Of a stretch of DNA of 64,000 nt, positions 3,699 to 50,014 are shown piece after piece. How positions within the stretch are numbered: position 1 is the stretch's first letter; each line of letters opens with the position of its first letter. Made by a program: the position numbers and the translations under genes. The DNA is from a virus. The notes beneath the pieces were generated by a model. It was not told where the DNA came from and made no database searches. It saw only the letters and a list, made by a program, of their open reading frames with translations. The DNA is taken from the IMG/VR virus record IMGVR_UViG_3300033978_000477, positions 1 to 64,000 of that record. One strand, given 5' to 3'.

Positions 3699-3774
3699 GG
3701 GGCAGCAAGCCGCAAGGCGCGGCTCCCGATTCCAAATCGGGGAGAGCTTGGTTCGATCCCAAGGCGTCCCGCCA
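3699..3774 (+). tRNA. tRNA-Trp (anticodon CCA) candidate
   Basis: Anticodon stem CCCGA/TCGGG (3725-3729, 3737-3741) encloses TTCCAAA, giving anticodon CCA at 3732-3734. The variable loop is GAGAG, the T arm is CTTGG-TTCGATC-CCAAG, and the D stem is GCCG/CGGC. The 3' strand GCGTCCC, a discriminator G as in bacterial tRNA-Trp, and an encoded CCA complete it. The acceptor stem pairs over 7 bp (one G-U) only if A3704 is bulged. Position 8 is not T and position 14 is not A, so it may be degenerate. It lies between capsid and connector genes. Confidence 0.5.
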
Positions 3775-41371: not shown

Positions 41372-41731
41372 TTAGTTGAGCATGTCGACGGCGTCGACAA
41401 CCTCGACGCCAGCCGCACGCGCCCTCGCGACCATGTCCGCAGTCCCGCGTCCACCAGGGAACGCGACTACGAGGTCGGGCTTCTCCCGCTCCAGCATCAG
41501 CGCGTTGCGGATGGGTCCTGCTGCCCGACCGTGCGTCTTCCAGTCGGCATGGTAGGCGACGCATTGGTGTCCGTTCTCCCGCGCCCAGCGGGCCGCCAGC
41601 GCGTCAGCGCCAGTGGCTCCGCCGTGGACGATGCGGAGGTCACCGTGGAACGCGTGTAGCGTGTTCAGCGTGTCTCTGACGCGGTGCCAGTCTGAGTAGT
41701 CGCGTCCGCCGCAAACGAGGATGGTGGTCAC
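41372..41731 (-). CDS. SLOG-family nucleotide-binding protein (DUF2493, YspA-like)
   Basis: 119 residues from GTG 41731. ILVCGGRDYSDWHRVRDTL, then IVHGGATGADALAARWA, PIRNALMLEREKPDLVVAFP and GGRGTADMVARARAAG give the complete Rossmann-like SLOG fold with the GGATGAD and PGGRGT loops. SLOG proteins sense or process nucleotide-derived ligands and several act as effectors in defence systems. It overlaps the cysH-like gene (GTGA) and is the last gene of the CRISPR-type operon, so an accessory role there is plausible. Single SLOG genes also occur in phages without csf genes. Confidence 0.85.
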   Translation of the reverse strand: MTTILVCGGRDYSDWHRVRDTLNTLHAFHGDLRIVHGGATGADALAARWARENGHQCVAYHADWKTHGRAAGPIRNALMLEREKPDLVVAFPGGRGTADMVARARAAGVEVVDAVDMLN

Positions 41732-42477
41732 CGGTTCACGTCCCGTTCCCGCGCTGCAAGCGCGTCAGTCAACTCGTCCGAATAATACGCGCGCTCCCAC
41801 GCGCGTCGCCCATGCCCGGTCCCTCGGTCCCCTCCCAGCGACCCAACGCGGATGTAGTTCCGGTCGTACATGCCGCCTTGGGTGCATGCGTACGCGGGAT
41901 GCAACGGCAGCCCATGGGCATGAATGAACGGGAACACGTGAAGCGCCACCTTCCAGTGCCCGATTGGGGCGCAGGTGTTCTCCGTGGTGAGTCCGTAGTG
42001 CGCCGTTCGAAGGCGCCTGACCGCAGACTCTTGGGCGCGCACACCCGAGATGTGGCGCTTCCCGAACATGCGCTCGGCTTGCGCGAAACCCTCGGATGAC
42101 GTGAGCCCCTTCTTCGCGGTACGAGCCTCGACCTCGTGATAGTTGGCGGTCGGATGCATCGCGAGAAATGCGTCCCGAACCAAGACGCAATCTGGGTTCT
42201 CACGATCATCGACGCGCACCCAGACGAGAGGAACATGGATCCCGTGGGTCAACGCGATGTGCGCCGTCACCACGGAGTCCTTGCCCCAACTCACCCCGAG
42301 GTAACCGCGCCTGCCATCAGGGCCGGCATCAAGGAACGTTCGCATCTCGTGAGCTGCCTTGCGAGCAAGCACATCAAGAGTCGGCCGCATCCTCTTTGCC
42401 TCAAGCGCATCGGTGCGCTCATAGATGGCCCACTGCTCCAAATCGCGTGGCGTATGGCGCGGACTGGCTATCAGCAC
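41728..42477 (-). CDS. cysH: CysH-like PP-loop protein (type IV-B accessory)
   Basis: 249 residues from GTG 42477. YLGVSWGKDSVVTAHIAL is the PP-loop (here SWGKDS rather than SGGKDS). LVWVRVDDRENPDCVLVRD and the end HWKVALHVFPFIHAHGLPLH then PAYACTQGGMYDRNYIRVG follow the PAPS-reductase/DndC-like plan. A cysH-like gene is the known hallmark partner of type IV-B csf operons; its reaction there is unknown. It overlaps csf3 by seven bases. A pure sulphur-metabolism or DNA-modification role is the alternative, but the context favours the csf link. Confidence 0.85.
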   Translation of the reverse strand: MLIASPRHTPRDLEQWAIYERTDALEAKRMRPTLDVLARKAAHEMRTFLDAGPDGRRGYLGVSWGKDSVVTAHIALTHGIHVPLVWVRVDDRENPDCVLVRDAFLAMHPTANYHEVEARTAKKGLTSSEGFAQAERMFGKRHISGVRAQESAVRRLRTAHYGLTTENTCAPIGHWKVALHVFPFIHAHGLPLHPAYACTQGGMYDRNYIRVGSLGGDRGTGHGRRAWERAYYSDELTDALAARERDVNR

Positions 42478-47095: not shown

Positions 47096-48223
47096 TCAGA
47101 TCCTCATCGGCATGACGACGCACAAGAAGTCATCGCCAGACTCCGCCTCGGGCGCCACCATCAGCGGGTCGAGTTCCCCGTTCAGTTTGAGGACCACCTC
47201 CTCGCAGGACAGAACGTTGCAGGCGTCGACGATGTATTTGGCGTTGAATCCAACGCTGATGTTCGGTCCGGTGTAGCCGATGATCAGTTCGTCCGCCCCA
47301 TCACCATGCTCCGGGCTCTCCGCCTCGATGCGGAGCGTCCCCTTGGAGAAGCGGAACTTGACGCCTCCAGTGCGCTCGTTCGATGCAACGGAGATCGCCT
47401 TGCAAGCCTCAATGAGCGCGAGCCGGTCGACTTCCGCGATGCTGTCGTTCCCCTTCGGGATGACCTGCGAGTATGGCGGGAACTTCGCGTCCACCAACTT
47501 GATGCTGTAGACCATCCCGGCGAAGTCGAAGAACGCGTTGTTGTCTGCGATGGTGACGCGGATGACCGATCCAGCATCCGCTGCGCTGGCCTCGTCACAC
47601 ATGCGACGGATGTCAGTTGCTCCCTTCAGCGGAAGAAGGAACTCAAAAGCGGTTCCTTCGGAGACGGGGAGGTTCGACAACGTCAGACGATGCCCGTCGG
47701 TGGAGACCGTTCGCAGGTTGGTGCCATCAGCCTCGAACTTGATCGCGTTCAGGTGGGCCCGCGACTCGTCCACGCCAACGCTGGAGATGACTCGACCGAT
47801 GGCGCGCGACAACGTCACGGCATGGAACTCGCGCGACGCCGTTGTGTTTGCGCCGGCAGCCTTTGCGACGGGCGGGAAGTCTTCGGCATGGTGGCATGGG
47901 AGCCGAAACTTTCGCGCCCCCTTCTCCGCCTTCATCTGGACGGCCTTGTCATCACCGATGATGGTGAGGTTGCCCGAAGGCATCGCCTTGACGCGAGCTT
48001 CCAGATCCTTCGCGCCGATGGCGATGGCCCCGGACTTCGAGACCTTGGCGTCCACGGACCCGGTGACGGATCGGTAGAGGTCGGTCGCGGTGAAGTGGAC
48101 CTGTCCATCTTCGCAACGTAGGAGGATGTTCGCGAGCATCGGCATGGTGCTCTTGTGGTCTGCGACAGGCGTTGCCCGTCGAAGGATCTTGTCGAGGTCG
48201 TTGCGTTGAATCGTCACTTCCAT
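47096..48223 (-). CDS. dnaN: DNA polymerase III sliding clamp (beta subunit)
   Basis: 375 residues from ATG 48223, the full length of bacterial beta clamps. Three repeats are visible: MEVTIQRNDLDKILRRATPV / MLANILLRCEDGQVHFTATD; FHAVTLSRAIGRVISSVGVD / VSTDGHRLTLSNLP; LIEACKAISVASNERTGGVK / FNAKYIVDACNVL and ending CVVMPMRI. It would form the ring that tethers polymerase and other proteins to DNA. Phage-encoded beta clamps are uncommon; it implies phage control of clamp-bound partners. It lies two genes after int in the same leftward unit. Confidence 0.92.
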   Translation of the reverse strand: MEVTIQRNDLDKILRRATPVADHKSTMPMLANILLRCEDGQVHFTATDLYRSVTGSVDAKVSKSGAIAIGAKDLEARVKAMPSGNLTIIGDDKAVQMKAEKGARKFRLPCHHAEDFPPVAKAAGANTTASREFHAVTLSRAIGRVISSVGVDESRAHLNAIKFEADGTNLRTVSTDGHRLTLSNLPVSEGTAFEFLLPLKGATDIRRMCDEASAADAGSVIRVTIADNNAFFDFAGMVYSIKLVDAKFPPYSQVIPKGNDSIAEVDRLALIEACKAISVASNERTGGVKFRFSKGTLRIEAESPEHGDGADELIIGYTGPNISVGFNAKYIVDACNVLSCEEVVLKLNGELDPLMVAPEAESGDDFLCVVMPMRI

Positions 48224-48438
48224 TGTCTGTTCTCTCCGTTCGTTCGGGACCCGCCCGACTCGGTTGATGCAATTCGTTTCTCGATGGCCCGCTGAACAGC
48301 CACCACCTTCCACTGAGGGCAGCCGTTGGTGTCCGCGTACTGCCTTGCCCTGGCAACCAGATCGTCGAAGCTCGCGCTCCCGAGCCAGGCCAGGAACTTG
48401 ATGTCCGCATCGATCCGGTGATGCTCCCCGCGCCTCAT
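48214..48438 (-). CDS. Small hypothetical protein
   Basis: 74 residues from ATG 48438. HHRIDADIKFLAWLGSASFD, DLVARARQYADTNGCPQWKV and VAVQRAIEKR are helical; the end is polar. Overlaps dnaN by ten bases and the upstream gene by four. No family recognised. Confidence 0.55.
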   Translation of the reverse strand: MRRGEHHRIDADIKFLAWLGSASFDDLVARARQYADTNGCPQWKVVAVQRAIEKRIASTESGGSRTNGENRQWK

Positions 48439-48644
48439 TGCCCGGACACCTCCCGCCAACCGGCATCGGTCAGCCGGTAGTAGGTCTTTGGCCCATCGGC
48501 GAACTGCACCGTCGCAGTCGCGCACAACCCCCTCAGGACGAGCGCGTCAACCGCATCGGCCTGGGATGGGGTCTCGGGCATGAAGAGCATGTGGCGGGCC
48601 ATCTGGCGCAAGCAAGCGGCCTCTGCGTCGATAGCCATCAGCAC
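48435..48644 (-). CDS. Small winged-helix-like protein
   Basis: 69 residues; ATG 48644 or ATG 48638, the first overlapping the integrase stop by seven bases. ADAVDALVLRGLCATATVQF and KTYYRLTDAGWREV have the helix-strand-strand pattern of small phage winged-helix proteins. Could be a regulator or excision factor next to int. Confidence 0.55.
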   Translation of the reverse strand: MLMAIDAEAACLRQMARHMLFMPETPSQADAVDALVLRGLCATATVQFADGPKTYYRLTDAGWREVSGQ

Positions 48645-50014
48645 GCCTCCTCTGCCGCGACATTGGCGCGATGCTCCGTCACCAATGCGTCGACCGCAGC
48701 GGCCAGGTCCAAGCCCTTGCGGGTCGCAAACGGGTCCCGCTCAGCAACAGCCGACAGGTAGGACCCGGATAGGGCCCAGAGCTTGTCCATCGGCGCGAGA
48801 TCATTCATGACTGCCCCCGTTTGCAAAACCGTCATACGTGGGTTCGAATCCCATCCACGCCTCTCAATCAATTCAATGGCTTGGCCCGCATCCTCGCTCA
48901 CTGGCTCGGGCCCTATTCGGACCCTATGTTGCGGGATGGCATTGCTCGGAAGGTCGACACTGGGCCCCATCGAGAGACCGATGGATCGCGCGTAGCGCTC
49001 CGTGACCTTGACCGAAGAGTGACCCAGGAGGTCCTTCACGGCCTCGTAGCTCCAAGGCTTGCCGTCCCAAGCTCCGGTCAACAGGAGCGTTGCGCATGTG
49101 TGGCGGAGATCATGCCAGCGGACGCGGCGAGTGATCCCGGCCTTGGCCTTCCAGGCTGCCCAGTCAGCGGCGGCGACGATGCGTCCCTTCGGGCGATGCA
49201 GTCCGGTGACGCTCGGCAGGACGATGCCTTTGCGCTCGGCCTCTGGCACCGCCAGGACGGCCTGTAGCGCGATGCCGAACAGGCGAACCTTCCGCACTCG
49301 CCCGCTCTTCGTCGAGACGCCTGGGGTGCCATAGCGGAGCACTACGTGGGGGACCTTGGCGTTGACGTGAACGTCGGACCAAAGAAGCGAACGCTCCTCG
49401 CCTTGGCGCATCCCGGTTCCGATGGCCAAGCAGACGGCCAGGTCGTTCCCGCTCGCAGCGATCAGCGCAAGCGTCTCCGCCATATCGAGGGCGGTGCTCT
49501 TCTCGTCCGTGCTGCCATGGTCTTTGACCTTGATGCCAAGCGCGACGTTGGTTGCGAGCTTGCCGGCCTCGACTCCGTAGGAGAGAACAGCGCGCAAGGT
49601 GTTGAGCGCGTTGCGCCGGGTCATCGTCGACAGCCCGCGCGCGGAGATGTCCGCCAGCCATTCCCGGATCTGTCCAGTCGTCAGATCGCGAGCCGGCATC
49701 CGCGATGCCTCCCACGGAAGGACGTAGGCGTTCCAGCAAGACTTGAAGCTCTTGATCGCCTTGTACCCATCGCGCTCGCGAAGGTCGATGCAGGACTCGC
49801 CAAGGCGCTTCAGGCTGATACCGCCTCGCGTGCACTCGCTCTCTGCTAGCACCGCTAGGATGCCATCGAGAGCCATCTCCGCCTCTTCGTAGGTCGCAAA
49901 CGGGGAGCCTTCGATCTCTTCCCTTCGTCCAATGGTGAACGGGAAGCGCGCGCGGTACCGTCCGTCTGCGATCTTGGTGATGGTGCCAGAGCCCTTAGGC
50001 CTTCGCTTCGTCAT
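48638..50014 (-). CDS. int: Tyrosine integrase with attP inside its coding end
   Basis: 458 residues. N-terminal arm-binding part (GSGTITKIADGRYRARFPF), core-binding helices, then the catalytic set: Arg203 in GTGMRQGEERS, His301 and Arg304 in WHDLRHTCAT, His332 in LLGHSSVKVT and Tyr341 in ERYAR. About 117 residues follow the Tyr. Residues 385-400 (RRGWDSNPRMTVLQTG) are the reverse translation of a tRNA-Cys 3' half, the attP core. Integration would therefore swap the end of the protein but leave the active site intact, as in phage Mx8. ATGA overlap with the gene upstream. Confidence 0.93.
   Translation of the reverse strand: MTKRRPKGSGTITKIADGRYRARFPFTIGRREEIEGSPFATYEEAEMALDGILAVLAESECTRGGISLKRLGESCIDLRERDGYKAIKSFKSCWNAYVLPWEASRMPARDLTTGQIREWLADISARGLSTMTRRNALNTLRAVLSYGVEAGKLATNVALGIKVKDHGSTDEKSTALDMAETLALIAASGNDLAVCLAIGTGMRQGEERSLLWSDVHVNAKVPHVVLRYGTPGVSTKSGRVRKVRLFGIALQAVLAVPEAERKGIVLPSVTGLHRPKGRIVAAADWAAWKAKAGITRRVRWHDLRHTCATLLLTGAWDGKPWSYEAVKDLLGHSSVKVTERYARSIGLSMGPSVDLPSNAIPQHRVRIGPEPVSEDAGQAIELIERRGWDSNPRMTVLQTGAVMNDLAPMDKLWALSGSYLSAVAERDPFATRKGLDLAAAVDALVTEHRANVAAEEAC
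48820..48862 (+). other. attP core: 3' half of a tRNA-Cys (GCA) gene
   Basis: Plus strand: anticodon loop TTGCAAA (48821-48827), 3' anticodon strand ACCGT, variable CATAC, T arm GTGGG-TTCGAAT-CCCAT, acceptor strand CCACGCC and T. The 5' half is absent and the 5' anticodon strand does not pair, so identity starts at the anticodon loop. This is the usual phage attachment core in a tRNA gene, next to and inside int. Confidence 0.82.

Follow-up and report, generated by a model that had tools for sequence, protein, structure and literature searches.

An integrase gene that reads through a tRNA-Cys half, and a C-terminal domain predicted to be detached by integration, in a probable temperate myophage of myxobacteria

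Results and discussion

The integrase gene (int) of the viral DNA analysed here (the window, i.e. the 64,000 nucleotides at positions 1 to 64,000 of IMG/VR record IMGVR_UViG_3300033978_000477) contains the 3' half of a tRNA-Cys gene and continues beyond it to encode a further domain. It is probable (roughly five chances in six) that this 45-bp tRNA half represents the attP core, embedded in the segment of int that codes for a flexible linker, and that integration would detach the C-terminal domain (CTD) of the enzyme while excision would restore it, with the CTD presumably serving integration specifically. The location of attP inside int is known, as in phage Mx8, while the conserved, detachable C-terminal domain appears to be new. 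The relevant features of the window are:

48638-50014, minus strand: int, encoding a tyrosine integrase of 458 aa while the DNA is circular (attP form), predicted 401 aa once integrated
48819-48863, plus strand: putative attP core, the 3' half of tRNA-Cys(GCA), 45 bp; antisense to int, encoding Int residues ~384-399
48864-48979, minus strand: linker running from catalytic Tyr341 to the core; Int residues ~346-383, predicted to be mostly disordered
48641-48817, minus strand: CTD of Int; residues 400-458, predicted to be removed by integration
48806-48808, minus strand: ATG codon within int where the CTD begins; might serve as a start of its own (MNDLAP...)
48759-48777, plus strand: left arm of an inverted repeat of 19 nt that is symmetric around the core; candidate arm-type Int site
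48908-48926, plus strand: right arm of the repeat, partner of 48759-48777

The int gene and its tRNA-derived core

Int was assigned to PHROG 1 (integrase), its residues 190-344 match Pfam family PF00589 (Phage_integrase, E 1.2e-18), and its predicted fold is closest to that of lambda Int (E 6e-10); R203, H301, R304, H332/W and the Y341 region are invariant in the integrase alignment, as befits a tyrosine recombinase. The core reads GTTTGCAAAACCGTCATACGTGGGTTCGAATCCCATCCACGCCTC on the plus strand, where it spans the anticodon loop to the 3' end of tRNA-Cys(GCA), and is translated as RRGWDSNPRMTVLQT in the int frame; no complete tRNA was detected at this locus by ARAGORN. With the catalytic tyrosine at position 341 and the core at residues ~384-399 of 458, the tRNA half lies inside the int frame and downstream of the catalytic domain, the arrangement of the Mx8 type. 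The original prediction had placed the core at 48820-48862, which is correct as to location, the true extent being 48819-48863 (45 bp); however, it took the core for the last part of int, whereas 59 further codons (residues 400-458) follow. It overlooked this 59-residue tail, its conservation as a domain and its recurrence across a large group of integrases. The proposal that the window derives from an unintegrated or circular form held, since the viral record (85,451 bp) carries direct repeats of 131 bp at both ends (130/131 identical) and is therefore a circular, unintegrated map. The 19-nt inverted repeat is centred on the core, and its arms are complementary at 16 of 19 positions, which was equalled in 1 of 100 dinucleotide shuffles; the arms may perhaps be arm-type binding sites.

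It is highly improbable that the tRNA half, instead of being attP, was left over from a tRNA carried by the phage or is a fortuitous antisense resemblance. The phage does carry a complete tRNA-Trp elsewhere (3699-3774), but the match within int runs from the anticodon loop to the exact 3' end of the tRNA gene, which is the usual att core, and related integrases have cores that are duplicated at both ends of their elements.

The host tRNA-Cys gene

All 45 bp of the core are identical to complete, intact tRNA-Cys(GCA) genes on contigs L006, L009 and L010, which belong to three myxobacterial metagenome-assembled genomes (MAGs). The host gene sought by the original prediction was thus located, and its claim of an antisense, in-frame tRNA-Cys(GCA) half within int was borne out. 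Furthermore, when 85,000 GTDB species genomes were scanned with a 31-bp piece of the core, eight matching stretches were obtained, seven of which contain a complete tRNA-Cys; all eight lie in MAGs whose titles read Myxococcales, Polyangiaceae or Polyangia, and none was found outside Myxococcota. Additionally, when the 4.4 kb surrounding int were searched blindly, as DNA, in 318 genomes of one class (that of the L009 MAG, G004, as given by the MAG title), 39 genomes yielded matches at E<=1e-10; the match fell on the tRNA-Cys core (query 420-464, equivalent to window 48819-48863) in 38 of them, with 100% identity in three. The correspondence between core and tRNA is far above chance, and the best explanation of the sequence evidence is that the host would be a Polyangia-type myxobacterium and the phage a temperate myophage.

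A stretch of L010/L018 that resembled an int remnant at the tRNA-Cys gene was ruled out, as the match consists mostly of the tRNA core itself and thus represents an empty attB. In L012/L016, the decayed catalytic part is genuinely present.

Predicted prophage form

Integration in silico into the three hosts (L006, L009 and L010) rebuilt a complete tRNA-Cys at attL in 3/3 cases, and attR never contained one. For each host the integrated Int is 401 aa long and ends in ...RRGWDSNPRMTVLQTVA*, residues 400-458 being replaced by Val-Ala-stop, and the new stop codon lies in the antisense D-arm of tRNA-Cys (...RRGWDSNPRMTVLQT-VA*). At attL a single frame still encodes residues 1-399 and with them the entire catalytic domain; the codons for residues 400-458 end up at attR. 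The SSV-type 'suicidal' archaeal integrases likewise carry att within their own gene (PMC8371274); in contrast to these, where the gene is split and the integrated enzyme is inactive, Tyr341 and all of the catalytic domain of the window Int would be kept together with the protein start in the prophage form.

The predicted end occurs in relatives at a complete tRNA-Cys. The int of L159, which is 58% identical over the catalytic part and is located on a viral contig that terminates in a complete tRNA-Cys, ends in ...RMTVLQTVA*; that of G274 ends in ...VTVLQTVA*, and the decayed copy in L012/L030 in ...RMTVLQTVA*, each at a complete tRNA-Cys. Exchange of the Int C-terminus upon integration, which had been proposed together with a comparison of Int ends, therefore occurs in silico for the window phage and is reflected in these relatives; a short, host-derived Int end was also recovered in four complete elements of relatives (see below). 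An integrated copy of the window phage itself was not found, only relatives being seen at tRNA-Cys, and the converse situation, in which host genomes carry prophages of this type at another locus with a different core, was not encountered.

The decayed integrase of L012 (5420-5830) is 63% identical to Int residues 268-398 and enters the tRNA-Cys at the contig end; it adjoins host-like genes, and the contig shares a 141-bp overlap with L007.

Integrated elements of related integrases

Among the closest Polyangia homologues, the majority of int frames enter a tRNA. Four complete integrated elements were recognised by a second copy of the core (a duplicated tRNA 3' half):

G149: 42.7 kb, tRNA-Arg CCT, 65-bp core
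G288: 33.8 kb, tRNA-Arg CCG, 47-bp core
G282: 41.4 kb, tRNA-Arg TCG, 46-bp core
G180: 5.3 kb, tRNA-Thr CGT, 47-bp core

In three of the four elements (G149, G288 and G180) the D-arm of the tRNA supplies the end of the integrated Int; in G282, int is in sense with the tRNA and the integrated Int ends in host DNA. Excision of the four elements in silico lengthens Int beyond the core by 140, 181, 290 and 366 nt (about 45-122 aa), and the empty site rebuilt from the element flanks is a complete tRNA.

The 5.3-kb element (G180:C8:276006-281380), which lies between two tRNA-Thr core copies and has its own int of the same group, is possibly a phage satellite. A mirror arrangement, with the tRNA 3' half in sense with int, was observed in L034, L037, L041, L053, L055, L181 and G282; in this orientation, integration would leave Int to terminate in whatever host DNA follows the tRNA. 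In L168, int continues through a tRNA-Trp half and on into a tail. L168/L169 were compared with a 76% identical relative, L172, which has a complete tRNA-Trp at that place with phage DNA returning ~1.2 kb downstream, as if a host tRNA had been kept, an observation that counts against the preferred reading. L172 was considered as an integrated twin of L168 and dropped; it was left out as evidence because the phage DNA seems to resume ~1.2 kb beyond its tRNA-Trp.

Distribution of the arrangement among viral integrases

Scanning IMG/VR with the integrase alignment yielded 80 loci and was more productive than a tail-profile search of genomes. The tRNA halves in viral loci correspond to Cys, Thr, Arg, Trp, a CAT anticodon, Ala, Val and others, and int is found in each of the three possible frames relative to the tRNA (10/8/12). 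The predicted attP-in-int arrangement is widespread, extending to dozens of integrases in viral contigs and in integrated elements of myxobacteria. The in-frame label was clustered on the tree built from 93 integrases, with 12 changes compared to 29.3 in shuffles: on one well-supported side 55 of 73 rows carry the label and three more are doubtful, while on the other side it is present in one of 20. The label has been gained or lost several times on this tree.

Openness of the reading frames was assessed in 26 close, non-duplicate viral loci where int contains a tRNA half in antisense. In 23 of these the frame of int remains open for at least 40 codons beyond the core (median 69), as opposed to 10 of 52 among the two alternative frames (median 8; p=4e-7), the latter count being a reminder that long open frames are fairly common in GC-rich DNA.

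The C-terminal tail

Alignment of the window tail with the rebuilt tails of G288 and G149, pairs that were tested ahead of any seed selection, gave z=5.5 relative to shuffles. In leave-one-out HMM searches the window tail scored 28.7 bits against a shuffled maximum of 12.2, and p<=0.0005 was obtained for 14 of 18 seeds; because the seeds were picked by eye, which flatters the numbers, these figures are supportive rather than unbiased. The tail predicted to be lost is a homologous domain, as judged by these comparisons, in many, though not all, members of the group: no homology to the window tail was detectable in the tails of Mx8, G180, L171/L183, L173/L177/L180 and L042. The Mx8 tail scored -2.0 bits against the tail HMM (p 0.95), tail homology to Mx9 was likewise sought and not found, and Pfam has no family for the tail. 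AlphaFold2 models of 14 attP-form integrases included the window Int, the CTD of which is predicted to form two helices (406-424 and 433-457, pLDDT about 80). Residues 346-372 and 381-403 have pLDDT <50, and this disordered stretch includes the tRNA-encoded residues; a disordered linker would explain the tolerance of different tRNAs and frames. GC content by codon position gave an ambiguous picture in the tails, that at third positions (GC3) not being above that at first positions (GC1).

A neutral origin, whereby attP happens to lie just behind int and loss of the stop codon has appended a functionless tail, is unlikely. The off-frames that stay open for at least 40 codons, the tails lacking detectable homology and the few clade members that stop before the core (relatives stopping before any tRNA are L039, L176, L186, L195 and L196) would be compatible with such read-through. 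Conversely, the int frame is open far more often than the off-frames (23/26 vs 10/52), tails are homologous across integrases with different tRNAs and frames, two helices are predicted with confidence, and the differences between the L171 and L183 tails fall mostly on third codon positions (20/21/42).

The internal ATG raises the further possibility, which we regard as quite improbable, that the tail is a separate small gene of 56 aa that lost the preceding stop and is not needed by Int. This ATG is situated just past the core with an upstream G-rich GGGGG and a 5-nt spacer, and small overlapping ORFs come next. However, Met is absent from that position and its vicinity in the homologous tails of L160, L161, L166, L033 and G282, which are in frame with int; additionally, no stand-alone homologue of the tail was found in phages, and a five-tail profile searched against the 318 genomes gave strong E-values only for its own members, at att sites or in int.

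Degradation tags form part of integration-dependent immunity in BPs-type mycobacteriophages. By analogy, the tail might be a protease tag that renders the Int of the free phage unstable, integration yielding a stable, shortened enzyme, and the principle has been published for phages of that type with attP in the repressor gene (PMC4557955). This explanation is improbable here, as the tail C-termini are heterogeneous (…EEAC, …ARAG, …KETA, …RPK, …RGAG) and mostly without an ssrA-like LAA, and the conserved part is an internal two-helix motif.

Proposed mechanism

According to the preferred reading, in which integration detaches a functional CTD, the free circular phage would make the long Int (458 aa, CTD included). 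Recombination with the host tRNA-Cys would rebuild the tRNA from the host 5' half and the phage core, and would join the int body to antisense tRNA, where the D-arm stop after Val-Ala would give a protein of 401 aa; the CTD coding sequence would be stranded at the opposite end of the prophage, and excision would return the long Int. This scheme supposes that recombination happens at the core as predicted, and that the CTD confers on free-phage Int an integration-specific property that is absent from the prophage form, in which case the recombination state would be written into the integrase itself. More tentatively, it is possible that a large group of integrases from myxobacterial and related phages carries a dedicated, homologous, detachable CTD only while the element is circular, that its loss acts as a one-bit memory of the recombination state, setting the direction either alone or alongside an excisionase, and that the flexible tRNA-encoded linker permits the adoption of new tRNA targets in any frame.

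Excisionases are the usual explanation for how an integrase is kept from undoing its own integration, while here a DNA rearrangement would edit the enzyme. The natural pairs of long and short Int are available for the question of direction control. For annotation purposes, prophage-derived integrases of this group would miss a real domain, and free-phage ones would include antisense tRNA.

Relation to known systems

Mx8 has so far been an isolated case, and the survey adds a shared domain that is kept in frame while tRNA targets and frames vary. In Mx8, 112 tail residues are reportedly replaced by 13. The Mx8 precedent invoked by the original prediction is apt: in the D86464 annotation the recombination site (2387-2415) falls within intP (1154-2755), a tRNA T-arm was found in frame in Mx8 Int/IntP, and in both phages an antisense tRNA 3' half lies in the 3' part of int, which acquires a new 3' end on integration in Mx8 (PMC6070905) and is predicted to do so in the window phage. 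According to the same review, the recombinant Mx8 int is not inactivated but changed in specificity (PMC6070905), and Mx9 is reported to work on a similar principle. The Islander authors describe the integrases of Mx8 and SSV as extending across attP (PMC4383910), and the kind of arrangement is therefore already known. Unlike Mx8, the window phage has a tRNA-Cys core, is a myophage with a tail sheath and has a tail domain that is not homologous to the Mx8 tail; neither Int retrieves the other in tblastn of the phage collection. The immunity systems of BPs and Brujita resemble the window phage in that attP lies in a gene and integration alters the C-terminus of its product (PMC4557955); there, however, attP is in the repressor gene and not, as here, in the integrase gene. 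No description of a conserved detachable tail domain, or of the breadth of the arrangement, was found in the literature searched (most subscription journals were outside the search).

Other genes of the phage

The complete tRNA-Trp gene noted above has the anticodon designation CCA and lies among the structural genes. Close downstream of int, a DNA polymerase III beta clamp gene (47096-48466, minus strand) was identified with all three Pfam domains and assigned to PHROG 947, and a phosphoadenosine phosphosulfate reductase-like gene (PHROG 2302) is located at 41728-42477 on the minus strand.
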